NCBI RefSeq assembly: GCF_025813715.1
Contig: NZ_CP107532.1
Span: 2,542,001 to 2,606,000, forward strand
From: Methylobacterium sp. FF17
GTDB taxonomy: Bacteria > Pseudomonadota > Alphaproteobacteria > Rhizobiales > Beijerinckiaceae
Direction of reading: 5' to 3'
Length of the DNA: 64,000 nt
Both the position numbers and the translations under genes were made by a program. The notes under the pieces were generated by a model. That model saw nothing but the letters and a program-made list of their open reading frames with translations. It had not been told where the DNA came from and searched no databases. Position 1 is the stretch's first letter, and each line of letters opens with the position of its first letter. Below, in pieces: positions 7,456 to 37,651 of this stretch.

Positions 7456-7832
7456 CTGTGTCGTCTCCTGACTTGGCCGCCTTCAGCAATGGCTCATGGC
7501 CCTCCTGAATGCATCCGTCCCGATTCGCCTCACCCGCTGTGCCAGTTCAGGACGCGAGATCCCCGGAACGAGAGCGATGTCGTCACCTGCGCGATCTCCG
7601 TGCCAGGGACACGACCTGTCGCTGGAGATAGCCCGAATGCTTGAACCTGTCCCGTTCGTACCGGCGCTGATCTTGGCCGGTTCTTTTCCTGGCAGATGCT
7701 TTTCCTCGCACGCGCTGATTTTGGCATGACGATCGCGCGAAAGGGTAAATAGCCAGGATGCGGAGTGCTGAGAGGCCGTTTGCCGGCGCAATCGCCTGTG
7801 CACGGCGTGCGCGCCCCGCATCGCGCGTGCGG
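7456..7832. promoter_or_regulatory. intergenic control region upstream of the Wzz-like gene, with direct repeats
   Basis: No convincing gene. Two 14-mers, GCGCTGATCTTGGC (7664-7677) and GCGCTGATTTTGGC (7712-7725), differ at one base and lie 48 bp apart, each associated with a TTTTCCT tract. The region is less GC-rich than its flanks. Position and repetition suggest activator or repressor sites for the Wzz-WecG transcript. Confidence 0.45.
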
Positions 7833-8933
7833 TCAGGTAGCAGCGACGACCGCATTCGGTGCCTCCGTATAAACCAAGGGCCCAATCCGGAGAAAGCGGG
7901 CGAAGCGCGCCGCATCGGCCGCCGCGAGATCGTTCCAGCGCCGGACGTTGTCCCGCGAGGCGGCGCGTGCGGCCGCGAAGGCGGGGCTGCCGGCCCAAGC
8001 CCGTATCGCGTCCGCTGCGCCGGCGGGATCCACCGGATCGATGAACAGGCCGGAGGCGCCGAGCACCTCCGAGAAGACGGGCCCCGCCGGGGCGACGATG
8101 GGCAGGCCGCCATGCTGCGCCTCGAGCAGCGGCAGGCCGAGCCCCTCCGCCTTCGAGGTCGACAGGAGGAGGTGGCAGCGCCCGGCGAGGTGGCGCAGGG
8201 CCGCGTCGTCGAGGTAGCCGTGCAGGGTCAGGAAGGGTGGCGGCGCGTCGAGGAAGGCGTGGCGCCCCCAGCCGACCCGCCCGACGATGTGCAGTTCCGC
8301 CCGCATTCCGGCGGCGTTGAGGGCCGCCACGATGGCGATGGCGGACGGATAATCCTTGCGCGGCTCGATCGTACCGATGGCGAGCAGGCGCAGGGGCTCC
8401 CCCGCCACCGGCGCCGGTGGCGGAGACAATCCGGCGAGGCCGAACACGTCGTGCACCGGCGGCCGCAGCAGGGCGACGAGGGCCTGACGCGCGCAGAGTG
8501 CCCGCACCGCGGAGCCGGTGGTGCGGGAATTCACCAGGAAGCGGCGCCCGAAGCGCATCGCGAAGGCGAAGCTCGGCGCCATGTAGAGCCGGGTCTTCCA
8601 GCTGAGATCCTCCGGGCGCGTCAGCAGGAAGGTATCGTGGATGTAGGCGATGCAGCGGTCCCGCAGCAGAAGCGTCGCCAGCGGGCCCGGCGGAAAGCCG
8701 GGAAAGATCGCCAGCGCCGTCGGATCGGCGAGCGCGCGAAGCGGCAATTCGACCTGCTGGCTCAGCATCAGGCCCGGCAGGTTCGCCGAGCGGATCGCGA
8801 CGACCGGATGGGGACGCAACGTCTCCGCGCCGAAGAGATCGACCGTTACCCGCTCGATGCCGGTGATGTGGTCGCGCAGGTGGGTGTGGTCGACGTAGAG
8901 GCGCACCGGTTCGGCGCGGTGTGCGGCCGTCAT
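7833..8933 (-). CDS. glycosyltransferase family 4
   Basis: 366 aa GT-B glycosyltransferase. The N-terminal acceptor half begins RLYVDHTHLRDHITGIERVT and continues through RCIAYIHDTFLLTRPE. The donor half has LRLLAIGTIEPRKDYPSAI (the usual VG.lepRKN), HIVGRVGWG, FLTLHGYLDDAALRHL and the sugar-binding STSKAEGLGLPLLEAQHGGLP (EGFGLPxxEAxxxGxP). It probably adds a hexose to a lipid-linked oligosaccharide on the cytoplasmic face. The ATG at 8933 overlaps the stop of the preceding glycosyltransferase by four bases (ATGA), so the two are translationally coupled. Confidence 0.9.
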   Translation of the reverse strand: MTAAHRAEPVRLYVDHTHLRDHITGIERVTVDLFGAETLRPHPVVAIRSANLPGLMLSQQVELPLRALADPTALAIFPGFPPGPLATLLLRDRCIAYIHDTFLLTRPEDLSWKTRLYMAPSFAFAMRFGRRFLVNSRTTGSAVRALCARQALVALLRPPVHDVFGLAGLSPPPAPVAGEPLRLLAIGTIEPRKDYPSAIAIVAALNAAGMRAELHIVGRVGWGRHAFLDAPPPFLTLHGYLDDAALRHLAGRCHLLLSTSKAEGLGLPLLEAQHGGLPIVAPAGPVFSEVLGASGLFIDPVDPAGAADAIRAWAGSPAFAAARAASRDNVRRWNDLAAADAARFARFLRIGPLVYTEAPNAVVAAT

Positions 8934-22528: not shown

Positions 22529-23911
22529 ATGACTCTGACGAGCGCACAGATCCTCGACCTCGCCCCCGATGCGGCGAGCCGCAAGGCGGGCCAGGACCAG
22601 GCCAAGCCGGCGAAGTGGAGCGGCACCGGCCGGGCCGGGACGATGATCTGGGGCGAGATCAAGGGCAGCGGCGCCAGCCCCTACCGCACCGTCGCGGATC
22701 CGGCCGGCCCGGCCTCGAAATGCACCTGCCCGAGCCGCAAGTTCCCCTGCAAGCATGCGCTCGGGCTGATGCTGGTCGATGCGGCCGCAACGCTCGCCGA
22801 GGCCACGGCCCCCGACTGGGTCGAGGCGTGGGCGAAAGGCCGCGAGAGTCGTGCCACGGCCGCCGAGACCCGGGCGCGCGAGCCGGCCAAGCCCGTCGAC
22901 GAGCGCGCGCAGGCCAAGCGCCGCCAGGCCCGGGAGGAGAAGGTCGCGGCGGCGCTGGACGAGCTCGACCTCTGGCTGCGCGACCTGATGCGGCGCGGCC
23001 TCGCCGGCGCCCGGAGCGAGCCCTACGCGTTCTGGGACCGCATGGCCGGGCGCCTCGTCGACGGGCAGGCGCCGGGCCTTGCCCGCCGGGTCCGGGCCCT
23101 GCCGGGCCTCGCGGCGGCGGCCCAGCCCGGCGCGCTCCGGCCCGAGGCGGCCCTCGGGCTTGGCCTCGGGCGCCTCGCCCTCCTGGTCCGGGCCGCGCGC
23201 CGCCTCGACCTCCTCGACCCCGAGCAGGCGGCGGGCGTACGCGCCGCGCTCGGCTCCCCCGTCGGCGCCGAGGAGATGGCGGTCCGGCCGGACCAGTCCG
23301 ATGACTGGGCGGTGCTCGCCCACAGCGTCGAGGAGGAGGACAAGCTCACCGCCCGCTCGGTCTGGCTCGCCGGCCGCACCACGGGCGCCCTGGCCCAGGT
23401 GATCGATTACGGCACCGCCGGCGCGCCCCCACCGCCCGGTCCCATGCCCGGTCAGGACTTTCGCGGCGCGCTCGCCTTCCTGCCGGGCGACCCGCCCCTG
23501 CGCGCCGCGCTTCGGGAGGGCCGGGCCGAGACGGGTTCGTGGGACGCCCTGCCGGGCGGGGGAACCGTCGCGGCGGCGCGGGACGGCTTCGCGGCGGTCC
23601 TGGCCCGTGCGCCCTGGGCCGAGCGCTGGCCGGTGCGGCTCGCCGGTGTGCGCCTCGGTCGCCTCGCGGGGAGCGTCGGGGCGGGGGGCTTCGGAGCAGG
23701 GAGCTTCGGGGTGGGGGATGGGACCGGCTGCCTCGCCCTGCGGGCCGATTCCCATCTCCCGACACTGCTCGCGGTCTCCGCCGGCCGACCGGTCGACCTG
23801 TTCGGCCTCCATGACGGCCACGCCCTCGTCCCCCTCGCCGTGGTGGCGGGGGGCCAGCTTTTCGCGGTTCCGGCGCATGGTCCGCACGCGATCCTGCGCC
23901 GGGTCGCCTGA
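22529..23911 (+). CDS. SWIM zinc-finger protein (YehQ-like)
   Basis: 460 aa. The SWIM motif CxCx6CxH is at C65, C67, C74 and H76 (SKCTCPSRKFPCKH), preceded by WSGTGRAGTMIWGEIKGSG, a strand-rich lead-in. A basic coiled region follows (about 100-150, ERAQAKRRQAREEKVAAALD), then a long alpha-helical Ala/Leu-rich body. SWIM fingers bind nucleic acid or protein partners. First gene of the SWIM-DUF5691-MoxR-DUF5682-VWA unit; its stop overlaps the next start by one base (TGATG). E. coli yehQ is a SWIM protein in the corresponding yehL-yehM-yehP cluster (from memory). No clear ribosome site; a TTG 25 codons upstream is an alternative start. Confidence 0.85.
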   Translation: MTLTSAQILDLAPDAASRKAGQDQAKPAKWSGTGRAGTMIWGEIKGSGASPYRTVADPAGPASKCTCPSRKFPCKHALGLMLVDAAATLAEATAPDWVEAWAKGRESRATAAETRAREPAKPVDERAQAKRRQAREEKVAAALDELDLWLRDLMRRGLAGARSEPYAFWDRMAGRLVDGQAPGLARRVRALPGLAAAAQPGALRPEAALGLGLGRLALLVRAARRLDLLDPEQAAGVRAALGSPVGAEEMAVRPDQSDDWAVLAHSVEEEDKLTARSVWLAGRTTGALAQVIDYGTAGAPPPPGPMPGQDFRGALAFLPGDPPLRAALREGRAETGSWDALPGGGTVAAARDGFAAVLARAPWAERWPVRLAGVRLGRLAGSVGAGGFGAGSFGVGDGTGCLALRADSHLPTLLAVSAGRPVDLFGLHDGHALVPLAVVAGGQLFAVPAHGPHAILRRVA

Positions 23912-25491
23912 TGACGGAGATCGAAACCCGCCCGACGGACGACGGCTGGGAGCCGGTCCTCGCCGCGGCCCTGCTGGGGGCCGAGCGCGCGCCGCCGGCC
24001 GCGCCCGGCCCCGTCGCGGACCTCGTCGCGGAGACCGATTCCGGCGGCGCGCTGCTGGCGCGGCTCGCCGCCCACGGCGCCCTGCACCGCGCCGGGACGG
24101 GGCTCGGGGCGGAGGCGCTGGTGCCCCTGCCGCCACGGGAGGTCTTCGGACCCGAATGCCCGCCCGCCGCGGCGACCCGGCTCCACGGCATCCTCGTGGG
24201 CGACTACGTCGTGCGCAAGCATCTGGCGGAGTGGTGCGAACTGGCCGCCGAAGCCGGGCTGCGCCCGCCCGCCTGGCTGCTCCCGGCGCTCGCCGCTCAG
24301 CGCAACACCCTGCCCGAGGCGATCGACCGGATCGCCGGCCCCGAGCTCGCCTGGCTCGCGCGCGTCTGCGGCGAGGCCCCCGCCACAGCGACCGAGGGGC
24401 CCGCCGACTGGACCGAAGGCACCCCGGGTGAGCGCCGCGCCGCTTTCGCGGCCTTCCGGGCCCGCGACCCGGAGCAGGCCCGCGCCGCCCTGGAGACTCG
24501 CTTCCGCAAGGAGAAGGCGGATCTGCGCGAAGCCCTGGTGTACGGGCTGGAGATCGGGCTGTCGGAGGCCGACGAGACCTTCCTCGAAGCCTGCCTCGAC
24601 GACCGTGCCAGCGGCGTGCGCACGGCCGCGCAGCGCCTGCTGCCGCGCCTGCCCGGCTCGCGCTTCGCCGAGCGCATGGCGGAGCGGGCACGCGCGGCGC
24701 TCGCCATCGCGGGCGAAGGCGGCCCCGACGGCACGACGCCCACCCTCGTCGTCACCCTGCCGGAGGAAAGCCCCGCGCTCCTGCGCGACGGCGTGGAGGG
24801 GAACACCTGGAAGGTCCGGAACGGCGGCGCCCGGTCGGTGCTGCTGGAGGGCATCCTCGCGCGCACGCCGCTATCGGTCTTCGCCGAGCATCCACCCCGT
24901 CTCTGGATCGCGCTGGCGCTCGCCAGCGAGTGGTCGGAGCCGGTCCTCGACGGGCTCTCCAGCGCGGTCGGGCGCAGCCTCGACCCGGACTGGACGCAGG
25001 CGATGGCCGACGTGCTGGCCGAGGCCTACGCCGAAAAGCTCCCGGGCGTGCGCCGCACCAGCCAGCTCCTCGACCGCTGGGCACAGGCGCTCGATCTCCT
25101 GCCCGACGCGGCGTGGGAAGCGCGGGTCGCCGAACTGATCCGGGCCCGCCGGATCGAGGTGGTGACGACCATGCTCGCCCACGGGCCCGAGCGCTTCTCG
25201 GAGCCGTTCAGCGCCACGCTCCTCGATTGGCTCGCCCTGGTGAGCCGCGGCTCCGACAGCCTGCGTCAGACCCTGGCGAAGGGCTGGACCGTCGAGCGGC
25301 TCGGCGAACGGCTTTGGCCGAGCGCGGATGCGACGGCGGGTGCCGCCGCCATCCTGGCACATCTCGGCGAGGCGGAGGGCACTCGCCTGCGCAACCAGCT
25401 CACGGCGCTCGCCGAGACGCTGGCGCTCCGCGTGGCGATGCGCGGGGATTTCGAACCCGAGACCGGAACAGGGGAGGACGCCCGAGCATGA
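23911..25491 (+). CDS. DUF5691 alpha-helical repeat protein
   Basis: 526 aa, almost entirely helical and rich in Ala/Leu/Arg, with HEAT/ARM-like repeats (KADLREALVYGLEIGLSEAD, then FLEACLDDRASGVRTAAQRL, PRLPGSRFAERMAERARAAL). This pattern of paired helices probing damage or partners is typical of scaffolds. The DUF5691 assignment is by neighbourhood plus sequence style. It is translationally coupled at both ends: TGATG with the SWIM gene and ATGA with the MoxR gene. In this family of operons it probably bridges the ATPase and effector; no enzymatic motif is visible. Confidence 0.78.
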   Translation: MTEIETRPTDDGWEPVLAAALLGAERAPPAAPGPVADLVAETDSGGALLARLAAHGALHRAGTGLGAEALVPLPPREVFGPECPPAAATRLHGILVGDYVVRKHLAEWCELAAEAGLRPPAWLLPALAAQRNTLPEAIDRIAGPELAWLARVCGEAPATATEGPADWTEGTPGERRAAFAAFRARDPEQARAALETRFRKEKADLREALVYGLEIGLSEADETFLEACLDDRASGVRTAAQRLLPRLPGSRFAERMAERARAALAIAGEGGPDGTTPTLVVTLPEESPALLRDGVEGNTWKVRNGGARSVLLEGILARTPLSVFAEHPPRLWIALALASEWSEPVLDGLSSAVGRSLDPDWTQAMADVLAEAYAEKLPGVRRTSQLLDRWAQALDLLPDAAWEARVAELIRARRIEVVTTMLAHGPERFSEPFSATLLDWLALVSRGSDSLRQTLAKGWTVERLGERLWPSADATAGAAAILAHLGEAEGTRLRNQLTALAETLALRVAMRGDFEPETGTGEDARA

Positions 25492-26588
25492 CGTCGAGCA
25501 ACGGACAGGAGACCGCGCGGCTGCGCGAGGCCGCCGAGGATGCCTTCGCGGAGGAGATCACGGCGCTGTCGGCGTCCGACGACCGGCCGCGCCCGCCGAA
25601 CTGGCGGATGTCGCCGCAGGCCGTCGTCACCTACCTCATGGGCGGCACCCTCGAATCCGGGTTCGCCGTCACCCCGAAATACATCGGAGACCGGCGCCTG
25701 ATGGAGGTCGCGGTGGCGACGCTGGCTACCGACCGCGCCCTGCTGCTGCTCGGCGTGCCCGGCACCGCCAAGAGCTGGGTCAGCGAGCATCTGGCGGCCG
25801 CGATCTGCGGCACCTCGCGGCTCATCGTGCAGGGCACGGCCGGCACCAGCGAGGAGGCGATCCGCTACGGCTGGAACTACGCGCTGCTGCTCGCCAAGGG
25901 GCCGAGCCGTGAGGCGGTGGTCGCCTCGCCGATCATGCGGGCCATGGAGGAGGGCCGCATCGCCCGCGTCGAGGAACTCACCCGCATCCCCTCCGAGACG
26001 CAGGACAGCTTCATCACCGTCCTGTCGGAGAAGACCCTGCCGATCCCGGAACTGAACGCGGAAGTCTCGGCCCGGAAGGGCTTCAACCTCATCGCGACCG
26101 CCAACAACCGGGACCGGGGCGTCAACGAATTGTCGAGCGCCCTCAAGCGCCGCTTCAACACCGTGGTGCTGCCGCCCCCCGCCACCATCGAGGCCGAGAT
26201 CGCCATCGTCGAGAGCCGGGTGGCGGCCCTCGGGCGCGCCTTCGAGATTCCGGCCGAGCCGCCCGGCGCCGAGGAGATCCGCCGGGTCGTCACGATCTTC
26301 CGCGAATTGCGCGAGGGCATCACCGTGGACGGCAAGGCCCGGGTGAAGCAGCCCTCCGGCACGCTCTCGACGGCGGAGGCGATCAGCGTCGTCGGGAGCG
26401 GGTTGGCCCTCGCCGCCCATTTCGGCGACGGCCGCCTCAGCGCGCGGGACCTCGTCTCGGGGATCAATGGTGCCGTGGTGAAGGACCCGGTGCAGGACGC
26501 CATCGTCTGGCGGGAATACCTGGAGACGGTGGTCAAGGAGCGCGACGGCTGGAAGGACTTCTACAAGGCCGCCCGCGCGGGTGCCTGA
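25488..26588 (+). CDS. MoxR-family AAA+ ATPase (YehL-like)
   Basis: 366 aa. Walker A GVPGTAKS at residues 89-96; Walker B/adjacent region IARVEELTRIPSETQDSFIT (about 158-177); sensor 1 LIATANNRDRGVNELSSALK (201-220) followed by the RRF arginine finger. The helix-2 insert typical of MoxR is present. MoxR ATPases act with VWA-domain partners as chaperone-like remodelling complexes that insert metals or activate effectors. The ATG at 25488 overlaps the DUF5691 stop (ATGA). The VWA partner lies two genes downstream, after DUF5682. Confidence 0.93.
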   Translation: MTSSNGQETARLREAAEDAFAEEITALSASDDRPRPPNWRMSPQAVVTYLMGGTLESGFAVTPKYIGDRRLMEVAVATLATDRALLLLGVPGTAKSWVSEHLAAAICGTSRLIVQGTAGTSEEAIRYGWNYALLLAKGPSREAVVASPIMRAMEEGRIARVEELTRIPSETQDSFITVLSEKTLPIPELNAEVSARKGFNLIATANNRDRGVNELSSALKRRFNTVVLPPPATIEAEIAIVESRVAALGRAFEIPAEPPGAEEIRRVVTIFRELREGITVDGKARVKQPSGTLSTAEAISVVGSGLALAAHFGDGRLSARDLVSGINGAVVKDPVQDAIVWREYLETVVKERDGWKDFYKAARAGA

Positions 26589-26592
26589 CGGT

Positions 26593-26620
26593 CCGCCACG
26601 CCCTTCCCGCTTCGTGGCGG
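26593..26620 (+). terminator. hairpin after the MoxR gene
   Basis: Perfect 8 bp stem CCGCCACG / CGTGGCGG with a 12-base loop, four bases past the MoxR stop and followed by a G-run rather than Ts. It could attenuate read-through into DUF5682-VWA, which begin 239 bp on and may have their own promoter. Confidence 0.45.
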
Positions 26621-26858
26621 GGGGATCGCGGAGCGGCCGGGAGCGGGGAGCGCCGGTGCCGATGCGGGCGCCGTCCTTCCCATCCGGCCAGCCGCGTCCG
26701 TCGCCATAGTCCCCCCGTCTCGACGCGGCCCAACCCTCACTTCCGCGCAGGGGGGAGGACGCGGAGGCCCGTCACGTTCCGCACAAACCCTCACGAGGAC
26801 GCCAGCAGCATGAGTGTTCGCCGCATCGGTCTTCGCCGCACGGCCGCATGGGATCGCG

Positions 26859-29168
26859 ATGCCTGACATCCGCCTCTTCGGCATCCGCCACCACGGACCC
26901 GGCTCCGCCCGCTCCCTGGCGGCGGCCCTCGACGCGTTCGCGCCGGATTGCGTGCTGATCGAGGGGCCGCCCGATGCCGATGACCTCATCGGGCTCGCCG
27001 CCCATGCGGAGATGACGCCGCCCGTGGCCCTCCTCGTCTACCGGCCGGACAGCCCGCGCACCTGCGCGTTCTTCCCGTTCGCGGCCTTCTCGCCCGAATG
27101 GGTGGCGATGCGCCAGGGGATCGCGGCGGGCGCGGCGATCCGCTTCATCGACCTGCCGCACGCGATCCAGCTCGCGGACGGGTTCGGGGTGCCGGACCAG
27201 GTTGAGACCCTCGACGGCGCCGAGACTGCTCTGGAGGTCGCGGCAGAAGCCTCACCCGAAGACGGCCCCGCCCCGATCCCCGCCGAGATCCGGCGCGATC
27301 CGCTGGGAGAACTCGCCGAGGCCGCCGGCTACCCGGACGGCGAGCGCTGGTGGGACGCCCTGATCGAGAGCCGCACGGCGACGGACGGCGACGTCTTCGC
27401 CGCGATCGCCGAGGCGATGTCGGCGCTGCGCGAGCAGGCCGAACCCGACTGCAGCGAGGCGTTCCGCGAGGAGGCCCGCGAGGCGCACATGCGCACCGCG
27501 ATCCGGAAGGCCGGCAAGGACTTCGCGCGGATCGCGGTGGTCTGCGGCGCCTGGCACGTGCCGGCGCTCGCCCGCCACGACGCGCGCGGTCAGTCGGGCC
27601 TCGATGCGGCGACGCTGAAAGGCCTGCCGAAGACGAAGGTCGCCGCCGCCTGGGCGCCGTGGTCCTACGAGCGGCTGGCCACCGCCTCGGGCTACCGCGC
27701 CGGGGTGCTCTCGCCCGAATGGTACGACACGCTCTGGCACCACGGCGACCGCGTCGCCGCGCGCTGGCTCGCCCGCGCCGCCGCCCTGCTGCGGGCGGAG
27801 GATCTCGACGCCTCGCCGGCCTCTGTGATCGAGGCGGCCCGCCTCGCCGAGGCCCTGGCGGGGTTTCGCGGCCGGGCCCGGCCCGCTCTGGAAGACCTCG
27901 ACGAGGCCGCGCGGGCGACGCTGTGCTTTGCCGACGATGCCCCGATGGTGCTGATCCGGCGCCGGCTCGTCATCGGCGAGCGCCTCGGCGCGACCCCGCC
28001 GGACAGTCCCGGCACGCCGGTCGAGGCCGATTTCGCCGCCCAGTGCAAGCGCCTGCGCCTCAGGCCCGGCGCGGATGCGGGCGAGATCACCCTCGACCTG
28101 CGGAAGGAGACGGACCTCGCCCGCAGCCATTTCCTCAACCGGTCGCGCCTCCTCGGCATCCCCTGGGGCGAGCGCCGGCAGGCGCGCGGGCGCGGCACCT
28201 TCAAGGAGGCGTGGTTCCTCGCCTGGAAGCCCGAATGGGTGGTGGAACTGGTGGCGGCCTCGGCCGAGGGCGGCACGCTGGCCGAAGCCGCCGCCGGCCG
28301 GGTGCGGAACCAGGCCCGCGCCGCCACCCGCGTCGCCGAACTCTCGGGCCTGATCGGCACGCTCCTCGACGCCGACCTCGCCGGGGCGACCGCCGACGTG
28401 ATCCGGGCGCTGGAGGACCGTGCCGCGGTCTCGGCGGACGTGTTCGACCTCATGGACGCCCTGCCGCCGCTCGCCGAACTCGCCCGCTACGGCTCGGTGC
28501 GCGCCGCCGACACCGAGCCGGTGCTGGCGGTGGTGCGCGGGCTGGTGCCACGCGCCGCCGCCGGGCTGGTCGCCGCCTGCCAGAGCCTCGACGACGACGC
28601 GGCGGCGGTGGCCAAGGCCCGCATCGTCGCGGTCTCGGGCGCCGTGACCCTGCTGGAGGAGCCGGCGTTGAAGGCTCTCTGGGGGGAGGCGCTGACGGCG
28701 CTCGCCGACCAGGAGCACGTCCACGGCCGCGTCGTCGGCCGGGCGGTGCGGCTGCTGTTCGACCAGGGCGCGATGACGGCGGCGGAGGCCGGGGACCGGA
28801 TGCGCCGCGCCCTGTCCCGGGCCGCTGGGGCGCTGGCCGCCGCCGCCTGGATCGAAGGATTCCTGGAGGACAGCGGCACGGTGCTGATCCACGGCGAGGG
28901 CCTGCTCGGCGTGGTGGACGGCTGGCTCTGCGACCTCGCGCCGGAGACCTTCATCGAACTCCTGCCCCTGGTGCGCCGCACCTTCGCGACCCTGCCCGCG
29001 CCCGAGCGCCGGACCATCGGCGAGACCCTGGCCCGACCGGGCGGCCCCGCCCTCGACGCCGCGACCGGCCCCGAGACCTTCGATGCCGGCCGCGCCGCAC
29101 GGGTGCTGCCCCTCCTGCGCCTGCTTCTGGGCCCCGAGCCGGCCCGCACCACCGGAGACCCCGCATGA
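26859..29168 (+). CDS. DUF5682 protein (YehM-like)
   Basis: 769 aa. It opens with the family signature IRLFGIRHHGPGSARSLAAA and CVLIEGPPDADDLIGLAA, a fold resembling the TraB/ChaN-like domain (His-rich motif, acidic EGPPD, later VVCGAWHVPAL with a His). Such domains may be metal-dependent hydrolases, but activity is unproven. The C-terminal two thirds are helical. The ATG at 26859 starts the conserved motif. Its stop overlaps the VWA start (ATGA). E. coli yehM, next to MoxR (yehL) and VWA (yehP), is a DUF5682 protein (from memory), matching this order. Confidence 0.85.
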   Translation: MPDIRLFGIRHHGPGSARSLAAALDAFAPDCVLIEGPPDADDLIGLAAHAEMTPPVALLVYRPDSPRTCAFFPFAAFSPEWVAMRQGIAAGAAIRFIDLPHAIQLADGFGVPDQVETLDGAETALEVAAEASPEDGPAPIPAEIRRDPLGELAEAAGYPDGERWWDALIESRTATDGDVFAAIAEAMSALREQAEPDCSEAFREEAREAHMRTAIRKAGKDFARIAVVCGAWHVPALARHDARGQSGLDAATLKGLPKTKVAAAWAPWSYERLATASGYRAGVLSPEWYDTLWHHGDRVAARWLARAAALLRAEDLDASPASVIEAARLAEALAGFRGRARPALEDLDEAARATLCFADDAPMVLIRRRLVIGERLGATPPDSPGTPVEADFAAQCKRLRLRPGADAGEITLDLRKETDLARSHFLNRSRLLGIPWGERRQARGRGTFKEAWFLAWKPEWVVELVAASAEGGTLAEAAAGRVRNQARAATRVAELSGLIGTLLDADLAGATADVIRALEDRAAVSADVFDLMDALPPLAELARYGSVRAADTEPVLAVVRGLVPRAAAGLVAACQSLDDDAAAVAKARIVAVSGAVTLLEEPALKALWGEALTALADQEHVHGRVVGRAVRLLFDQGAMTAAEAGDRMRRALSRAAGALAAAAWIEGFLEDSGTVLIHGEGLLGVVDGWLCDLAPETFIELLPLVRRTFATLPAPERRTIGETLARPGGPALDAATGPETFDAGRAARVLPLLRLLLGPEPARTTGDPA

Positions 29169-30337
29169 ACGGGACCGAACGCACGACCGAGGCCGAGCGC
29201 CTGCGCCGCTGGCGCCTCGTCCTCGGCGGCGGTGCGGCCGAGGGCACGCGCGCCGACCTGTCGGAGCACGACGCGCGACTCGACCGGGCGATGGGCGCCC
29301 TCTACGATTCGGATCGCAAGGGGAGTCTCGCCGCCTCCGCCCCCTCCGTGCCGCGCTGGCTCGGCGACATCCGCGACTATTTCCCGGCCTCCGTCGTGCA
29401 GGTGATGCAGCGCGACGCCTTCGAACGCCTCGACCTCAAGCGCATGCTGGCCGAGCCCGAGATGCTGGAGGCGGTCCAGCCCGACGTGAATCTCGTCTCG
29501 ACGCTCATCTCCATGCGGGCTCTGCTGGGCGGCGGCACCAAGGAGACCGCCCGCCTCGTGGTGCGCAGGGTCGTGGACGAACTGATGCGGCGACTGGAGG
29601 AGCCCCTGCGGCAGGCGGTGAGCGGGGCGATCGACCGCGCCAGCATCAACCGCCGCCCGCGCCACAGCGAGATCGACTGGAACCGCACGATCCGGGCGAA
29701 CCTGCGCCACTACCAGGCGGCGTACCGGACCATCATCCCGGAGACCCGCCTCGGCCACGGACGCCGCAGCCGGGGGTCGCTCAAGGACGTGATCCTGTGC
29801 ATCGACCAGTCGGGCTCGATGGCCAATTCCGTGGTCTATTCGAGCATCTTCGGCGCCGTGATGGCTTCGCTGCCCGCGGTCTCGACCCGGCTCGTGGTGT
29901 TCGACACCGCCGTGGTCGACCTCTCCGACCAGATCGACGATCCAGTGGAGGTGCTGTTCTCGGTCCAGCTCGGCGGCGGCACCGACATCAACCGGGCGGT
30001 GAGCTACTGCGCCGCACGCATCACGCGCCCCGAGGACACCGTGCTGGTGCTGATCTCCGACCTCTACGAGGGCGGGGTCGAGGCGGGGCTGCTGGCCCAG
30101 GCCCAGCGCCTCGTCGCGTCGGGCGTCCAGGTGGTGGCCCTCCTCGCCCTCTCCGACGAGGGCGCGCCGGCCTACGACCGGGCGCTCGCCGGCCGGCTCG
30201 CGGCGCTGGGCGTCCCCGCCTTCGCCTGCACGCCGGACCTTTTCCCCGACCTGATGGCGGCGGCGATCCGCAAGCAGGACCTCGCCGCCTGGGCGGCCGG
30301 CGCCGGCATCGCGGCGGTGCCGCCGACGACCGCCTGA
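29165..30337 (+). CDS. VWA-domain protein, CoxE-like (YehP-like)
   Basis: 390 aa. The N-terminal half (about 1-200) is helical; the C-terminal von Willebrand A domain (about 206-380) has a full MIDAS: DxSxS at D214, S216 and S218 (LCIDQSGSMANS), T273 in QLGGGTDINRAVS, and D299 in VLVLISDLYEGG. It should bind Mg and, as in MoxR-VWA systems, act as the ATPase's partner adaptor. It is the last gene of the unit, coupled to DUF5682 by ATGA. The next transcribed unit, the retron, begins about 350 bp downstream past a terminator-like hairpin. Confidence 0.92.
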   Translation: MNGTERTTEAERLRRWRLVLGGGAAEGTRADLSEHDARLDRAMGALYDSDRKGSLAASAPSVPRWLGDIRDYFPASVVQVMQRDAFERLDLKRMLAEPEMLEAVQPDVNLVSTLISMRALLGGGTKETARLVVRRVVDELMRRLEEPLRQAVSGAIDRASINRRPRHSEIDWNRTIRANLRHYQAAYRTIIPETRLGHGRRSRGSLKDVILCIDQSGSMANSVVYSSIFGAVMASLPAVSTRLVVFDTAVVDLSDQIDDPVEVLFSVQLGGGTDINRAVSYCAARITRPEDTVLVLISDLYEGGVEAGLLAQAQRLVASGVQVVALLALSDEGAPAYDRALAGRLAALGVPAFACTPDLFPDLMAAAIRKQDLAAWAAGAGIAAVPPTTA

Positions 30338-30683
30338 GGCCCTGAGATGTCCGTCGTCCCCGCTGTCCGACCTTCATCCCCCGAGCCCCGATGAATCGGT
30401 CGATGCGACGCGCTCCGAGCCGCGAAGGCCCTCGCCGGGAGGAAAGCCGGTCGCATCGGCGGGATTTGAATCTGCGGCTCCCACGCGCCGAACGGCGTGA
30501 GCGTCCGATAGCCTGTCCCGAGTCGACCGGATCGATCGCGCTCCCGGAGGCGGCGCAGCCAGGGGCCGACGGGTTGCCCCCTGGCTCCCGGGCCGGGTAG
30601 ATATTCTTAATCGGTCACAATGTCGCGGAGTCGCGGATGCGCGTGGGTGATCGGTGCCTGTTTCGCCGCCGCAAGGAGACACG
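30338..30683. other. intergenic region between the MoxR-VWA unit and the retron
   Basis: No ORF here is convincing. It contains a short hairpin at 30478-30501 with arms CTC.CACGCGCCG / CGGCGTGAG, the terminator hairpin at 30557-30586 and an AT-rich GATATTCTTAATCGG segment (about 30601-30615) that could hold the retron promoter. Confidence 0.45.
30557..30586 (+). terminator. hairpin ending the MoxR-VWA transcript
   Basis: 9 bp perfect stem AGCCAGGGG / CCCCTGGCT around an 11-12 base loop. It separates the two modules; followed by GC-rich sequence, not a T-run. Confidence 0.5.
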
Positions 30684-30734
30684 ATGTCCGCCATCATCGA
30701 TCGCCGCGACGCCCGGTCCGGGCTGCCTGCATGA
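30684..30734 (+). CDS. 16-codon leader ORF of the retron operon
   Basis: AAGGAG stands six bases before this ATG, the best ribosome site in the region. The ORF reads MSAIIDRRDARSGLPA and its TGA overlaps the ATG of the large WGR protein as ATGA, so reinitiation at the next gene is likely. I infer a translational-coupling leader; it may simply be a misplaced start, since it is not in frame with the large gene and has no recognisable function. Confidence 0.4.
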   Translation: MSAIIDRRDARSGLPA

Positions 30735-33700
30735 GGGTCATCCGCTCGGCGCGCCTCCACCTGGCGGAGGGAACCTCCGACAAGGTCTACGAGGTCGACC
30801 TCGTCGAGAACGACGCCCTCGCCGGCCCCGAGCGGTTCCTCGTCAATATCCGCTACGGCCGACGCGGTGCGATCCTGCGGGAAGGGTCGAAGACGCCACA
30901 GCCCGTCGCGCGCGATGCGGCCGAGCGGGTGTTCGACAGCGTCGTCGTGTCGAAGATCAACGGCGGATACAGCCGGAAGGACGTCCCCGGCTCCGGAATC
31001 GCTGTGGCGAGCGCCCCGGCCGAGGGCCGCGCCGGTGTGCTCCTGGCGCGCCTCGCCGGCTGCCGGCGCTGGGCCTGGCCGGAGGCGGATCGCGAACGCC
31101 TGCTCTGGCGCATCGGACAGCTCCGGCTCCCCGCAGCGGCGCCCGACCTCCTTGCGCTTGCCCGGGAACGCGGACCGTCGGAGGCGAGCTACGCCCTGGT
31201 CTGGGCCCTCGCGCGCGCCGTGGGCGCCGAAGCCGCGCCGACCCTCGAGGCCGTGGCGGCCGGCACCCGAAGCGTCGTCATCCGCGATCTCGCCCGGTTC
31301 GCCCTCGTCTGCCCGCTGATGGGCTCCGAGCGACGCGTGGCGGGCGCGGATCCCGACCTGCCCGCCATGCTCGCGGGGCCGGCCGGGGCCGGCGACCCGG
31401 ATGGCCTCGTGGGGGCGCTCCTGGGCCTGGCCGAACAGCATCCGGCCGAGGTCGGGCCGGCGCTGGTGGCGCTCGGCCGGTGCGCACAGGACGACGCCGG
31501 GCTGCACGCCGCCCTCTGCGCCGCGCTGCCCCGACTTCCGGCCCGGCCGCCTTTCCTCATCGGCCTGCGCCGGCTCTTCAAGCATGCCGAGATGGCCGAC
31601 GATGCCGGTCTCTTCGCGGCGACGGCCCGGCGGTTCGAAACCGCGACGGCGATGTATCGCTCCGGCAACAGCCACGTCTACCTGCCGGAGGTGAGGCGGC
31701 GCCTCGCGATCCGCGAGGAGCTTGGTACGGCGCAGGCGCGGATCGGCCTGTCCTCGGCGACCCTCCTCTACTTCAAGCGCCGGATCTGGCGGGCCCTGCG
31801 CAAGCGCGGCGAGGTTGGTGACCCCGCCTTCGCCGAGTTGGCCGCCGCCGTCCTGCTGAGCCTGCGGCCGGAGGATCTGGGACCGCGCACGGCCTCGGCG
31901 ACCTGGAAGCGACAGCCGGATGGCAACTGGGGCCGCGTGCCGCGCGTGCGGGGCCCCCTCGCGGGAAACTGGACTGCGAACCACCTCCTGTACCGCCACG
32001 CCGCGCAGGCGCGTCCGTGTTCCGGCTCCGCCACGTTCTTCCTCGAGGCCGATCCCGATCCCGACCTCCGCGACGAGGCTTTTCCGGACCTCTGGAGTCC
32101 ACGCCCGGACCTCGCCTTGCGCCTCGCGGCCGATGCGCGGATCGAACCCGCGGCGATGCTGGGCCTGCGCCTCCTTCGGGCCGACCCGCAGACCTGCGAA
32201 GCCCTGGTGGCGGCCGACCTGGGGCGCCTGCTCAGTGCACCCTTTCCGGCCGTTCAATGCCTGGGCCTGGACATCGCCCGCGCCCGGCTGGCGCAGGGGG
32301 AGGCGGACCCGGAACTCCTGTCGGCTCTGATCCGGGCGGCCATGCCCGAGGCGCGGAGCCTCGCCCTGCGCCGGATCGAGTCCGAGCCGGGACTGCCCTG
32401 GTCGAGCCCGTCGCTGGCCTTCGCGCTGGTGACGAGCCCCGAACCGGAGACGACGGAGGCCGTCGCCCGCCTCGCCCGCGAGCGCCGCCTTCCGGCTGAC
32501 GTCGCCGGTCCGCTCACCCTTCGGCTGGTCGAGTGGTTGCGCGCGATGCCGCCGGCGCTCGACCCGACGGACAGTGCGGCAATTCGGGCCCTGCGCATGG
32601 CGCTTCCCGTCCTTTGGCCGGATCGCGACATGCCGGCGGCGGGCGCGGATGCCGCCGCCCTGATGGCGCATCCCGCCCCCGAGGTCGCCGCGGCGGGCAT
32701 CGCCCTGCTGGCGCAATCCAGTATCGGGGCTGATGATGTGCCGGCAGAGCGCTGGGACGCCCTGATCGGATCGGACTCCGCAGAGATCCGCGAAGCCGTG
32801 CTCGGCCTCATGGCCCGGCTCGACGACGCGCGTCTGGCTGGATATGCCAACCGCATCCTCACCCTCGCGAGCGGTCCGGGGAGCGCCCTGCGCCGGGCGG
32901 CGCGCCCCCTCGTGCGGCGCCTTGTCGAGGCCGATTCCAGCAGCGCCCCGGATCTGGCGCAGGCCGTGATCGCGAGCCTGTTCCGCACCGCCCCCGACGA
33001 TCGTTTCGCCGGCGACATGATCGCCCTCCTGCAGGGGGCGGTGCCGGGCGAACTCGCCGCCCTCGATCCCGGCACCGTGTGGCGCCTGTCGCAAGCGCGG
33101 GCGAAGGGCGCGCAGCGCCTCGGCGCGGTGGTCCTGGCCGAGCGGAGCCCCGACCTCTTCAGCGTGCGCCAGATCGCGCGGCTCGGCGGTCATCCGCATC
33201 TCTCGGTCAGAACATGGGCGTGCGCCGCCTTCGAGGCCGAGCCGGCCCGCTTTCAGGCGGAGGCGGCGGACGCGGTGCTCCTCGTCGAGAGCGACTGGCC
33301 GGACAGCCTCGCCTTCGCGCAGAGCCACTTCGCGACCTGGCCGGAGGAGGCCTGGACACCGGCTGCGCTCGCCGTGGTGACCGACAGCGTGAAGCCGGAC
33401 GTGCTGGCCTTCGCCCGCCAGCTCCTGCGCACGCGGCTCCGGCCGGAGGATGCCGACGCACAGGTTCTGCGCCTGCTGGAGCATCCCTCGCCCTCCATGC
33501 ACCTGCTGCTCACCGAACTCCTGACGGAGCGGGCGGTGGCGAGCGAGGATGCCTTCGCGCGCCTGGTCCCGCTCGCGCGCATCGTCCTGCTGCAGGTGCT
33601 GACCGGCCGGACCGCCAAGGACCGCATGGCCGCGTTCCTCAGGGCCGAGGCGTTGCGGAGCCGCGCGCGGGCGGAACGCCTGGTGCCCCTCTTCGCCGAC

Positions 33701-33853
33701 CTTTCCTTGAGCGGCACCGCCCGCGACCGGAGCGCCGCGATCCTGACCCTGCGCGATCTCGCGGCGGTCTATCCGGACCTCGCCACGCCGCTCGTCGCCC
33801 GCCCGCCCGAGGCGCGGCGGACCTCAGGCGCGCGCGCGGAGGCCACCCCATGA
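30731..33853 (+). CDS. type XIII retron accessory protein ARM: WGR domain plus HEAT/armadillo repeats
   Basis: 1040 aa. Residues 1-85 are a WGR domain: IRSARLHLAEGTSDKVYEVD, FLVNIRYGRRGAILREGSKT (the YGRRG at 42-46 takes the WGR place), and FDSVVVSKINGGYSRK. WGR domains bind DNA ends in PARPs and occur in MolR-like proteins. The remaining roughly 950 residues are helical HEAT/armadillo repeats (SYALVWALARAVGAEAAPTL, ASVIEAA-like pairs, LGGHPHLSVRTWACAAFEAE). From memory, type XIII retrons carry an armadillo-repeat protein and a winged-helix/SWIM protein with the RT. The stop overlaps the SWIM gene (ATGA). Confidence 0.88.
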   Translation: MRVIRSARLHLAEGTSDKVYEVDLVENDALAGPERFLVNIRYGRRGAILREGSKTPQPVARDAAERVFDSVVVSKINGGYSRKDVPGSGIAVASAPAEGRAGVLLARLAGCRRWAWPEADRERLLWRIGQLRLPAAAPDLLALARERGPSEASYALVWALARAVGAEAAPTLEAVAAGTRSVVIRDLARFALVCPLMGSERRVAGADPDLPAMLAGPAGAGDPDGLVGALLGLAEQHPAEVGPALVALGRCAQDDAGLHAALCAALPRLPARPPFLIGLRRLFKHAEMADDAGLFAATARRFETATAMYRSGNSHVYLPEVRRRLAIREELGTAQARIGLSSATLLYFKRRIWRALRKRGEVGDPAFAELAAAVLLSLRPEDLGPRTASATWKRQPDGNWGRVPRVRGPLAGNWTANHLLYRHAAQARPCSGSATFFLEADPDPDLRDEAFPDLWSPRPDLALRLAADARIEPAAMLGLRLLRADPQTCEALVAADLGRLLSAPFPAVQCLGLDIARARLAQGEADPELLSALIRAAMPEARSLALRRIESEPGLPWSSPSLAFALVTSPEPETTEAVARLARERRLPADVAGPLTLRLVEWLRAMPPALDPTDSAAIRALRMALPVLWPDRDMPAAGADAAALMAHPAPEVAAAGIALLAQSSIGADDVPAERWDALIGSDSAEIREAVLGLMARLDDARLAGYANRILTLASGPGSALRRAARPLVRRLVEADSSSAPDLAQAVIASLFRTAPDDRFAGDMIALLQGAVPGELAALDPGTVWRLSQARAKGAQRLGAVVLAERSPDLFSVRQIARLGGHPHLSVRTWACAAFEAEPARFQAEAADAVLLVESDWPDSLAFAQSHFATWPEEAWTPAALAVVTDSVKPDVLAFARQLLRTRLRPEDADAQVLRLLEHPSPSMHLLLTELLTERAVASEDAFARLVPLARIVLLQVLTGRTAKDRMAAFLRAEALRSRARAERLVPLFADLSLSGTARDRSAAILTLRDLAAVYPDLATPLVARPPEARRTSGARAEATP

Positions 33854-35532
33854 ACTTCGTCCATCGCTATCTCGGCGAGAGCCGCGCCGTCACGGAAGGC
33901 GGGGCGACCCGGCTCGGCTTCGCCCCCGACACCTTGCGCGAACCGACCTTCTTCACCGGCAGGGTCTCGCGTCATCTGCCGTTCCGGGAGGCGATCTCGG
34001 CCCTGCACCACGTCGTGGTCTCGGATCTGCGCTTCAAGCCGAAGGACCAGACCGCTTACTTCGCCTGGTTGCAGGCCAACGAGCAGCAACTCCTGGCCGA
34101 AGCGCTCACCGAGAAGGACACGATCCGCGCCGAGATCGAAGCCCTGAGCAAGGAGATCAAGGACATCGATGCGCGCTCCCAGGTCGTGATGCGGCCCTTC
34201 TACGACGCGCGCCAACGTTACTTCAATCGTCTCTACAAGGAGGATCTCGACGCCTGGATGGTACTCGACCCGGTCATCACCGTGCATCCGGACGAGATCT
34301 TCTTCGAGTGCTTCAGCCTCGACGAATCCACCTACGGGCGCCTGTCCTGCGACCACGACGTGTTCGAGCGCCTGGGCGACATGGCCTTCGGCACCACCAA
34401 CATCGACTACAGCCACACCCTCTACGACGAATTCCAGAAGATCCGCAGCGACCGGCACACCGAATTGTCCATCGATCCGGACGGGTTCTCGGTGGAGACC
34501 ACCGGCGAGGCGGCGTTCCGCGAGGACAAGATCGACCTGCCCGAGTCCTGGATGCGGGGCTTCCTCCAAGTCTCGAGCGCCATGGCGCAGCCGGCGCACG
34601 TGGTCGACCTGCACCCCGTCGACATGCACGCGATCCTGACACGGCTCGCGGCGCGCCGGGAGCGGCACGGCCCGCGCTCCCTGCGCTTCCTGCTCGAACC
34701 CGACCGGCCGGTGAGCGTGGTGATCGAGCCCTGGAACGAGCGCCTGACCTTTCGGCGCTCGATCTATCGCGGTGCCACGGGGGCCGAGATCCGGCTCTGG
34801 GGCCGGCGCCGGCTGGCGATCCTTGCCCGCGCCCTGCCGCTGGCCAAGGCCGTGCGCCTGCATCTCCTCGGCACCGGGCTGCCGTCCTTCGCGGTGGTGG
34901 ATTTCGGGGGCCTGCGCTTCACCCTCGGCCTCTCCGGCTGGACCGCCAACGACTGGTCGCGGGCCGGGCAGTTCGACCTTCTCGCCCCGCGCGCGGATAT
35001 CGATGCGGACACGGCCGCACGGGTCTTCGCGGCACTGAGCCGCCACCACTTCGCCGATGCCGGCGCCCTGGCCGCCGAGACCGGTCTCGACAGAGGAATC
35101 GTGGGAGCAGCCCTGGGGGGCTACGTGCAGGCCGGCCGGGCCATGTTCGACCTCGACAAGCGGGTGTACCGCCTGCGCGAACTGACCCGCACACCGCTGG
35201 ATGCCGGGGCCCTGCGCTTCGCGTCCGCGCAGGAGGCCAAGGCCGACCGCTTCCTCGGCGCCGGCCTCGTGACCCTCGGCCCCGTCGATCGGGCTGATGG
35301 CCGGCGCAGCCTCACCGGAACGGTCCTGGACGACGGCAGGGCCGTGTCCCCCGCCATCGAGATCGACGCGGACGACCGCATGGTCGGCGGCCGCTGCGCC
35401 TGCGGTTTCTATATCCGCAACCGGCTGGCGCGCGGCCCGTGCGAGCACATGCTGGCCCTGCGCCGCCAGTTCCACGCTCAGGTCGAGGGCAGATTCGAAG
35501 CCGAGAAAGAGCCCATGGGGAGCCAGGCGTGA
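33850..35532 (+). CDS. type XIII retron accessory protein WHSWIM: winged helix plus SWIM finger
   Basis: 560 aa. The N-terminal half contains a helical FKPKDQTAYFAWLQANEQQL segment and a charged coiled-coil (KDTIRAEIEALSKEIKDIDA, about 95-115). A winged-helix-like module lies at about 383-445 (DADTAARVFAALSRHHFADA, RGIVGAALGGYVQAGRAMFD). The SWIM finger is C516, C518, C531 and H533 (GRCACGFYI ... GPCEHM; CxCx12CxH). The ATG overlaps the WGR gene stop. The stop is 52 bp before the retron RNA, so all three proteins and the RNA are probably one transcript. Its molecular function in the retron is not known to me. Confidence 0.88.
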   Translation: MNFVHRYLGESRAVTEGGATRLGFAPDTLREPTFFTGRVSRHLPFREAISALHHVVVSDLRFKPKDQTAYFAWLQANEQQLLAEALTEKDTIRAEIEALSKEIKDIDARSQVVMRPFYDARQRYFNRLYKEDLDAWMVLDPVITVHPDEIFFECFSLDESTYGRLSCDHDVFERLGDMAFGTTNIDYSHTLYDEFQKIRSDRHTELSIDPDGFSVETTGEAAFREDKIDLPESWMRGFLQVSSAMAQPAHVVDLHPVDMHAILTRLAARRERHGPRSLRFLLEPDRPVSVVIEPWNERLTFRRSIYRGATGAEIRLWGRRRLAILARALPLAKAVRLHLLGTGLPSFAVVDFGGLRFTLGLSGWTANDWSRAGQFDLLAPRADIDADTAARVFAALSRHHFADAGALAAETGLDRGIVGAALGGYVQAGRAMFDLDKRVYRLRELTRTPLDAGALRFASAQEAKADRFLGAGLVTLGPVDRADGRRSLTGTVLDDGRAVSPAIEIDADDRMVGGRCACGFYIRNRLARGPCEHMLALRRQFHAQVEGRFEAEKEPMGSQA

Positions 35533-35584
35533 GTGGACGCAGCCGATTGAAACCCGTGCCAGAATCCCCTACGTTTTCGACCCT

Positions 35585-35813
35585 GAGGGGCGTCGGCCGG
35601 AGCGGACCTTGCACCCTGGGCGGCGCTTCGCCGTCCCTGCACCCTGCCCGGCAAAGCGTCACTGGTCCGTTCTTCACTGGGCCGGCACTGACCTCCCCGG
35701 CGCATTTTCGGTTTGGGTTCCTTGAACCCAAATGCGCCGGGGAGGTCGTGCCGGCATCGAGTGGACCGGACCAGTCCCGAGACTTGACGAAGGCTTTCCG
35801 GCCGGCGTCCCTC
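35585..35813 (+). ncRNA. msr-msd: retron msr-msd RNA
   Basis: This 229-nt region precedes the RT and has every retron RNA element. The a1 repeat (35585-35600, GAGGGGCGTCGGCCGG) pairs over 16 bases with a2 (35798-35813, CCGGCCGGCGTCCCTC), with two G-U pairs. AGC follows a1 (35601-35603), so the branch guanosine is predicted at 35602. An msr stem-loop lies at 35618-35637. The msd is a long hairpin, 35661-35775: outer stem ACTGGTCCG (35661-35669) with CGGACCAGT (35767-35775), and inner stem 35681-35755 with 8 + 15 bp perfect arms, one bulged T, a 7-base bulge and a 9 bp apical stem on a CTT loop. Predicted msDNA is about 135 nt. Confidence 0.88.
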
Positions 35814-35842
35814 GCTCAAGCCATCGTCGGGGCTTCCCGCCC

Positions 35843-37651
35843 ATGACGGTCCAGCCCGGTTCGCTGACCCGCCAGCAGCTCTACGACCGCATCCGCGAAA
35901 GTTCGAAGGACGAGGTCGTCCTCGAAGAGATGATCCGCCTCGGCTACTGGCCGGACGGGGCCGACCAGCCGAACCCGCCCGAAGACCTGAACCGCCGCCG
36001 GGGCGAGATCGTGCGTGAGCTGACCGACCTGCACCGCCGCGCAGCCTTGTGGGCAAATCCGGACGCCGCCCTCAAGGCGATGCACAAGCGCCGCAAGACA
36101 GAGGCCCTGAAGCGTCGGGGAGAGACCCGGCTGCGCAACGCCCGCGGCCGCCATGAGCGGGCGCTCGCCTGGCATGCGCGCGGCAAGTCCGAGATCCTCT
36201 ACCTCGGCGAGGGCGTCTCGGCCGGGCTCTCGTCGCGCGAGACGGCCCCCGCCGCGCCGTCGGGCGGTCTCCCGGTGCTGGCGAGCCCCGCCGCGCTGGC
36301 GCAGGCCATCGGGATCAGCCTCGGCGAGCTGCGCTTCCTCGCCTATGACCGGGCGCTCACGACGGTGAGCCACTACCAGCGCTTCACCATCCCCAAGAAG
36401 ACGGGCGGCGTCCGCGCCATCTCGGCGCCGATGCCGCGCCTGAAGCGGGCGCAGTACTGGGTGCTCGATGCCGTCCTTGATCAAGCCCCGGTGCACGACG
36501 CGGCCCACGGCTTCGTGCCCGGTCGCTCCATCCTGACGAACGCCGCCCAGCATGTAGGGCGAGACGTGGTGGTCAATCTCGACTTGAAGGACTTCTTCCC
36601 GACCCTCGATTATTGCCGGATCAAGGGCAAGTTCCGGGGTCTCGGCTATGCCGAGCCCGTCGCCACCGTGCTCGCGCTCCTCTGCACCGAGCCGGACGTG
36701 GACGCGGTCGAGATCGACGGGCAGCGCCTCTACGCGGCGCGCGGCCCCCGGCGCCTGCCGCAGGGGGCGCCGACCAGCCCGGCCCTGACCAACCTCGTCT
36801 GCACCCGCCTCGACGCGCGGCTCGCCGGCCTCGCCCGGTCGCTCGGCTTCACCTATACGCGCTACGCCGACGACATGACCTTTTCCGCCTCCGGCGCGGC
36901 GGCGGCCAAGACCGGCGCGCTGCTGAAATACGTGCACGAAATCGTCGAAGCGGAAGGCTTCACCGTCCATTCCGACAAGACCCGGGTGATGCGGCGGGGC
37001 CGGCACCAGGAGGTCACCGGCCTGACGGTGAACGAGCGGGTCGCGGTGCCGCGCGAGACCCTGCGCCGCTTCCGCGCCCTGCTGCACGGGATCGAGCGGC
37101 ACGGGCCTGCCGGCCGGCGCTGGGGCCGGAGCGCGGACGCGGCCGTGCTGGGGGCCGCCCTCGGCTTCGCTCGCTTCGTCCGGATGGTAACGCCCGAGGC
37201 CGGCGCACCCCTGGTCGCCGAGGCGAGAAGGCTCGTCGAGCGGCACGGGACGGGTCAGCAGATCGCACAGCCCCGGATCACCGCCTTTCGCGCGCGCTCC
37301 GCGCAGGGCGTGCCGCCGCGCGAGGGCTGGTGGGTTCCGGCCGAACGGGCCGCGCCGCAGCCCGATCCGGTCCTGATCGCGGCGGAGGCGGCCCAGGACG
37401 AGGCGGATCGCCGCGCAGCGAGCACGACCGGCCGCCGCGTCGTCCCGCCGATCGGTCGCCCGCCCGTGCCGGAGCGGCCGGGTTCCGACCAAGTCTTGGA
37501 GCCCGGCGACCCGCCCGCCCTGAAGCCCTGGATGGCCTTCCTCGGCGTGTTCGTCCTGTTCCAGGCCGCCGCCCTGCTGCATCCAGGCCTCGGCCTCGTC
37601 GTGCTCGCGGCCGCGCTGGTGATCGGCGTTCGTCGCTGGCTCCGCCGGTGA
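35843..37651 (+). CDS. retron-type reverse transcriptase with N- and C-terminal extensions
   Basis: 602 aa. The RT core spans about 145-450: FTIPKKTGGVRAI (181-193), HGFVPGRSI (222-230), catalytic motif A NLDLKDFFPTL (D247), LPQGAPTSP (305-313), YADD (341-344) with catalytic aspartates D343/D344, then TVHSDKTRVMRRGRHQEVTG with the retron-type VTG at 391-393. A charged helical N-terminal extension (1-145, ELTDLHRRAALWANPDAALK) and a long C-terminal tail, ending in two hydrophobic segments (about 563-599, WMAFLGVFVLFQAAALL and LGLVVLAAALVIG), are unusual. The ATG at 35843 lies 30 bp past a2. It makes msDNA from the upstream RNA; the tail may tether it to membrane. Confidence 0.95.
   Translation: MTVQPGSLTRQQLYDRIRESSKDEVVLEEMIRLGYWPDGADQPNPPEDLNRRRGEIVRELTDLHRRAALWANPDAALKAMHKRRKTEALKRRGETRLRNARGRHERALAWHARGKSEILYLGEGVSAGLSSRETAPAAPSGGLPVLASPAALAQAIGISLGELRFLAYDRALTTVSHYQRFTIPKKTGGVRAISAPMPRLKRAQYWVLDAVLDQAPVHDAAHGFVPGRSILTNAAQHVGRDVVVNLDLKDFFPTLDYCRIKGKFRGLGYAEPVATVLALLCTEPDVDAVEIDGQRLYAARGPRRLPQGAPTSPALTNLVCTRLDARLAGLARSLGFTYTRYADDMTFSASGAAAAKTGALLKYVHEIVEAEGFTVHSDKTRVMRRGRHQEVTGLTVNERVAVPRETLRRFRALLHGIERHGPAGRRWGRSADAAVLGAALGFARFVRMVTPEAGAPLVAEARRLVERHGTGQQIAQPRITAFRARSAQGVPPREGWWVPAERAAPQPDPVLIAAEAAQDEADRRAASTTGRRVVPPIGRPPVPERPGSDQVLEPGDPPALKPWMAFLGVFVLFQAAALLHPGLGLVVLAAALVIGVRRWLRR

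Follow-up and report, generated by a model that had tools for sequence, protein, structure and literature searches.

Retron type XIII, which Mestre et al. (2020) reportedly defined, is met in the literature that we searched, mostly at the level of listings and passages, as a label of PADLOC. Neither a published mechanism for the type, nor a retron tied to WHSWIM or WGR proteins, nor type XIII together with its multicopy single-stranded DNA (msDNA) and non-coding RNA (ncRNA), was found in that literature. Among other described retrons, those named RT-Toprim (type I-C), RT-Protease (type XI) and RT-TIR (type XII) by PADLOC likewise have an extra segment at the C terminus of their reverse transcriptase (RT). 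In known retrons, a particle of RT and msDNA keeps a toxin in check (PMC12548924). Here we analyzed a stretch of 64,000 nucleotides from Methylobacterium sp. FF17 (contig NZ_CP107532.1, positions 2,542,001 to 2,606,000), hereafter the window, whose locus 30731-37651 is almost certainly an intact type XIII retron consisting of a WGR/HEAT protein, a SWIM protein, an msr-msd RNA and an RT. All coordinates below are those of the window, and all features are on the + strand.

Compared with type XIII as described by PADLOC and DefenseFinder, the locus has the same three proteins in the same order, an RT of the same clade and an ncRNA upstream of the RT gene, with no difference in kind. It is a further member of an already known type, and its interest lies in what the comparison with its relatives says of the type as a whole. 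The comparison points to a probable clamp-like subunit, seen in predicted structures, and suggests a membrane-type tail of the RT as well as versions with several RNAs; none of these three was found described for type XIII in the literature searched. The clamp fold, the RT tail and the RNA model belong to type XIII in general and are invisible in the model names. The first two turn the 'unknown effector' of type XIII into directly testable questions, and the RNA model makes its template findable where Rfam, at gathering scores, finds nothing for this RNA. In contrast to retrons with RT-effector fusions, the RT bears a membrane-type or Trp-rich tail and no enzyme domain, and is accompanied by two partner proteins.

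Gene layout and assignment to type XIII

The type XIII label proposed by the original prediction was borne out by the PADLOC models. WGR_XIII matched the 1040-aa WGR/HEAT-armadillo solenoid protein (30731..33853; 4.1e-254 over residues 1-1028), SWIM_XIII the 560-aa 'WHSWIM' protein (33850..35532; 7.7e-212, residues 1-543) and RT_XIII the 602-aa RT (35843..37651; 9.5e-177 over residues 6-481), and each was the top match by a wide margin. For the RT, the score of 587 bits was followed by 326 bits for the next RT model, about 260 bits lower, and Pfam returned RVT_1. All three reading frames are open and contiguous. The WGR gene had been proposed to start at 30684, but this ATG is out of frame (47 nt before 30731); we read the frame from 30731, and another in-frame ATG is present at 30620. 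The genes had also been described as joined by ATGA overlaps, which holds for the WGR/SWIM junction (33850-33853) and not for the SWIM and RT genes; the latter are 310 nt apart, with the RNA inside this gap.

The predicted RT segments QGAPTSP (36761-36781), YADD (36863-36874) and VTG (37013-37021) are all present, as is NAxxH (36539-36553), which the prediction had not named; NAxxH, VTG and YADD are motifs of retron RTs. An alignment of 74 RTs (73 relatives and that of the window), all of which matched RT_XIII at 1e-50, showed N233, A234, H237, A342-D344 and V391-G393 to be invariant and Y341 to be conserved in at least 90% of the sequences. In a tree of 119 rows, comprising 112 type-XIII-like RTs and seven outgroup sequences, the RT of the window was grouped, with good support, with other Methylobacteriaceae in a set of 12 rows, in agreement with the label.

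As relatives we used the best 80 of 531 stretches encoding an RT relative, with one genome per species, which gave 81 loci together with the window. With tblastn, 74 of the 80 loci gave a relative of the SWIM protein, or 75 of 81 if the window is counted; the loci without a match were L041, L049, L053, L059, L065 and L081. Two of these six, L049 and L081, start close to the RT because of a contig end. The WGR protein, the SWIM protein, the RNA and the RT recur together in Pseudomonadota, Bacteroidota, Myxococcota, Planctomycetota, Chloroflexota and, at L054, Cyanobacteriota, and this recurrence across phyla indicates that their association is more than chance. Among 111 Methylobacterium genomes, the RT (RT_XIII at 1e-100), the SWIM protein (SWIM_XIII at 1e-20) and the RNA (at 1e-5) were each found in 21; these were the same 21 genomes, with a single match for each component and at adjoining positions.

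Two cyanobacterial type XIII-like RTs (L053:10001-11407 and L065:6061-7467) had no WGR, SWIM or RNA match nearby, and the frame of the latter contains an in-frame stop. At L058:6157-8298, L074:5544-9107 and L032:4180-9515, extra frames separate the SWIM gene from the RNA; by eye, the L058 frame at 6799-8298 resembles an additional WGR protein.

The retron RNA and its tandem copies

The structured RNA that the original prediction had placed before the RT gene is a retron ncRNA (msr-msd) of 229 nt at 35585..35813, bounded by the arms a1 (35585-35600) and a2 (35798-35813) and identified by covariation, by a test of the arm duplex and by a covariance model, R1. Its sequence folds at -150.5 kcal/mol (z -9.5), a value equalled by 0 of 200 shuffles, and the covariation is stronger evidence still. 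Across the loci, 70 of the 75 gaps between the SWIM and RT genes span 150-700 nt, and a conserved core anchored on CTTGC was found in 67 of these 70; 15 alphaproteobacterial copies align without any gap. RNAalifold applied to 22 copies from several phyla gave 41 pairs, of which 32 showed changes on both sides. A conserved msr stem-loop (35618..35636, helix 1) was paired in 98.9% of the cells, and a long msd hairpin (35681..35755, helices 3-5), whose arms 35690-35707 and 35730-35747 match exactly over 18 nt in the window, had both-side changes in 25 of its 26 pairs.

In the same 22-copy alignment, 93.4% of the cells were paired, compared with 68.7% after shuffling and 34-43% after sliding by 1-3 columns, and the double-change cells numbered 216 versus 65. 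None of five pairing measures was reached in any of 500 shuffles; the structure was derived from the same alignment that was scored, which biases the result in its favour, but the effect is large all the same. The a1 and a2 arms diverge strongly in sequence between groups while their pairing is kept, and 60 of 62 loci beat all 50 of their shuffles. The model R1 recognized the RNA of the window at 4.3e-55, the window being among the 22 sequences of the model, and in the window's genome it found a single full-length locus, along with a weaker match to the same hairpin on the reverse strand.

We searched 28 sources with R1, partly picked for odd gaps, and found tandem RNAs in several of them: L026, L049, L057, L074 and L080 had two copies each, and L075 gave three full-length matches and a further fragment. 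The msr is nearly the same in the tandem copies of L026, L057, L074 and L080 (75-76 of 78 positions identical), and more variable in L049 (66 of 78) and L075 (51-68 of 78). In the first four of these loci the arms and the msd stem diverge more and still pair by eye. Since the tandem RNAs precede one RT, this RT probably makes several different msDNAs.

The partner proteins and the tail of the reverse transcriptase

The SWIM protein combines a predicted clamp domain with a winged helix and a SWIM zinc finger. In fold searches its predicted structure matched the whole two-domain chain of PCNA, and we consider it very probable that the core of the protein, residues 34-371 (33949..34962), adopts the fold of a PCNA-like sliding clamp, interrupted by the insertion of a helical hairpin (about residues 68-131). 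The four helices expected to form the lining of such a clamp carry basic residues or have them close by: R46, K197, R199, R276, R319-R321 and R327 are invariant, and position 270 is K or R in every aligned sequence. The likeness to PCNA sliding clamps is one of predicted fold, and the SWIM protein differs from them in the hairpin insertion and in its fusion to the winged helix and SWIM finger; no PCNA was among the matches of a sequence-profile search (E up to 1), a result compatible with remote kinship. The zinc-finger ligands C516, C518, C531 and H533 (35395..35448) are invariant for the three cysteines and conserved in at least 90% of 39 sequences for the histidine. The Pfam SWIM family was matched at E up to 1 by 37 of the 39 aligned members (best 1e-5), not including the window's own copy.

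In the predicted structure of the WGR protein, a beta domain at the N terminus leads into a helical solenoid (predicted local distance difference test score, pLDDT, 89). Of 43 aligned members, 28 matched Pfam WGR (best 2.4e-9) and 27 matched HEAT_2 at E up to 1; the copy of the window itself had no Pfam match at this threshold.

The RT of type XIII consists of the core, a variable linker that is often rich in Pro and Ala, and usually one of two endings. The RT of the window reaches about 210 residues past VTG, whereas nine RTs of other groups (10 regions, taken from genomes with type XIII loci) end 66-82 residues past this motif and have no hydrophobic tail. In Pseudomonadota the ending is a hydrophobic segment or hairpin, which in the window reads KPWMAFLGVFVLFQAAALLHPGLGLVVLAAALVIGVRRWLRR; this hairpin, recognized by hydropathy and by comparison with the 80 relatives, covers residues 560-597 (37520..37633), starts at a KPW motif and is followed by the protein end RRWLRR. 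In Bacteroidota, Myxococcota, Planctomycetota and Chloroflexota the protein instead ends with a motif, for example KKPWWKFW or DKPWWDVL. A tryptophan occupies the motif column in 67 of the 74 aligned sequences, in both tail classes.

The 81 RTs were classified as 39 with hydrophobic helices, 33 with the Trp motif and nine with neither, after L041 had been moved by hand from the Trp to the hydrophobic class (before that, 38, 34 and nine). Several of the nine tail-less RTs belong to atypical loci: L018 and L022 run off their contigs, L025 ends early, and L053 and L065 are those without partners or RNA. A hydropathy cut-off of 1.8 was exceeded by 38 of the 39 hydrophobic tails and by none of the cores of the same RTs, as well as by 5 of 66 WGR proteins and 0 of 73 SWIM proteins. 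In a second list of 120 RTs, obtained with the planctomycete RT of L032 as query and including this RT and a few loci of the first set, 84 carried the Trp motif, of which 83 have W at -4 and 82 have it at -5; 30 were short and tail-less (462-496 aa; P0140, P0149 and P0163 among them), and six were long without the pattern, five of these ending Trp-rich. In the tree the RTs with hydrophobic tails form one group, which needs two changes and stands beside Trp-tailed groups at a fork with a support of only 80 in the Shimodaira-Hasegawa-like approximate likelihood ratio test. In our reading, which depends on an uncertain root, a Trp tail became a hydrophobic hairpin through a single extension in Pseudomonadota and disappeared in another lineage.

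On the basis of these sequence features, we think it likely that the RT is attached to the membrane by its tail. Several observations weigh against this. The membrane tail is predicted from hydropathy only, a measure that at a cut-off of 1.6 picks up 20 of 66 WGR proteins and 12 of 81 RT cores as well. Partners are present at L051, L054, L063 and L073, where the RT has no tail by the rule used (that of L063 possibly ends in an amphipathic segment). Among the 120 RTs nearest to that of the window, three of which are named partial, 105 have the hydrophobic tail; the others are four short RTs and 11 long ones in which the rule finds no tail. In addition, 26 of the 30 short RTs of the second list cluster together inside the Trp-tailed planctomycete RTs, which shows that the tail is dispensable in some lineages, and the motif of Chitinophaga is acidic (e.g. 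KPWWDVL), which is less typical of a membrane-seeking peptide.

Proposed mechanism, rival readings and upstream genes

Our leading account, in which we place about as much trust as doubt, is a membrane-tethered RT-msDNA complex whose tail serves as an anchor and possibly as a toxin. The RT would copy the msd part of the RNA into msDNA and keep hold of this product; the two partners, one a WGR/HEAT solenoid and the other a clamp/winged-helix/SWIM protein, would join this particle and watch nucleic acids. The hydrophobic hairpin would hold the complex at the cytoplasmic membrane, a role taken in other phyla by the Trp-rich motif. The membrane-active tail of the RT would also be the effector: disturbance of the msDNA or of the partner proteins by a phage would make the tails cluster or insert and depolarize the cell, resulting in abortive infection. 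The original prediction had suggested a role of the msDNA as sensor or toxin neutralizer. We put forward this effector role only tentatively, by analogy with the RT-fused domains of types I-C, XI and XII, and because the Pfam scans and fold searches that we ran detected no toxin or enzyme domain in either partner, which leaves the tail as the likeliest candidate. The full picture of type XIII as membrane-bound defence particles, with a killing tail on the RT, a PCNA-like clamp coupling msDNA to DNA surveillance and, in some members, several msDNA-encoding RNAs per RT, is accordingly composite and, taken as a whole, speculative.

Another reading, somewhat improbable in our view, is that the tail merely positions the complex at the membrane and that the effector is the WGR or the SWIM partner, through a DNA or RNA chemistry that is unrecognized by sequence. 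The SWIM protein is far more conserved than the WGR protein (48-54% identity to that of the window outside Alphaproteobacteria, with 111 invariant columns, versus 24-32%), and may for this reason be the active part. Its core, however, matches a non-enzymatic clamp fold, Pfam scans gave no enzyme family that fits it, and none had a convincing match among the 43 aligned WGR proteins.

It is also conceivable, though unlikely, that the tail is a clamp-binding peptide. The SWIM gene belongs to the same operon as the RT gene, and the tail would link the RT to the clamp fold of the SWIM gene product. Polymerases with C-terminal PCNA-interacting (PIP) peptides exist, and KKPWWKFW-COOH fits the PIP-like spacing K-x-x-W-x-x-F-W; the motif stands at the extreme C terminus past a hypervariable, probably disordered linker, is near-invariant in 84 proteins, and has a partner with a PCNA-like predicted fold. 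But most of the Pseudomonadota RTs compared have a hydrophobic stretch after the motif W that would suit a membrane better than a clamp pocket, and the tails of Chitinophaga end in non-aromatic residues (VL, IL, VV etc.). Clamp binding suits the Trp form well and the hydrophobic form badly, and membrane attachment is the shared role most compatible with both.

Upstream of the retron lies a cassette SWIM - DUF5691 - MoxR-like AAA - DUF5682 - VWA (22529-30337), whose last gene ends 393 bp before it. That the two form one larger system is improbable. In its favour, both use WGR and SWIM proteins, and Methylobacterium has two quite different cassette versions upstream on the same strand: at L094 (genome G016), a divergent cassette of MoxR-like AAA, DUF5682, two WGR/DUF4132 proteins, VWA and SWIM stands directly upstream of the retron, and its DUF5682-to-RT spacing (16.3 kb) is repeated by coordinates in G042, G094, G097 and G098, gene content having been read in G016 only. 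DUF5682 was thus found within 20 kb of the retron, in two different forms, in 6 of the 21 retron-bearing Methylobacterium genomes (window included). However, the other 15 had no match within 20 kb on the same contig, where contig ends could hide some, and in none of the genomes compared outside the genus did DUF5682 share a contig with the RT at a distance of 20 kb or less (48 searched, 29 with DUF5682, some of the latter Methylobacterium); moreover, the five further genomes may reflect a single inheritance. MoxR-DUF5682-VWA-SWIM cassettes with WGR-DUF4132 proteins of the type named MolR/Yeh in E. coli have WGR and SWIM domains in common with the retron. The WGR protein of the retron has HEAT repeats instead, with no DUF4132 match in the window's copy and no DUF4132 in the 25 families (out of 37) listed for its 43 relatives, and the SWIM proteins differ. 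We regard the cassette as a curiosity rather than a part of the retron system.

Finally, the existence of broken-looking relatives (L025, L021, L033, L066 and L041) could hint that the locus is an inert or domesticated remnant, which is very improbable given that its frames are all open and its active site and RNA pairing intact. As for these relatives, L041 has neither a partner nor an RNA that we could find, the RT frame of L025 stops early, and L021, L033 and L066 have in-frame stops in a partner gene, near the C terminus in the latter two.

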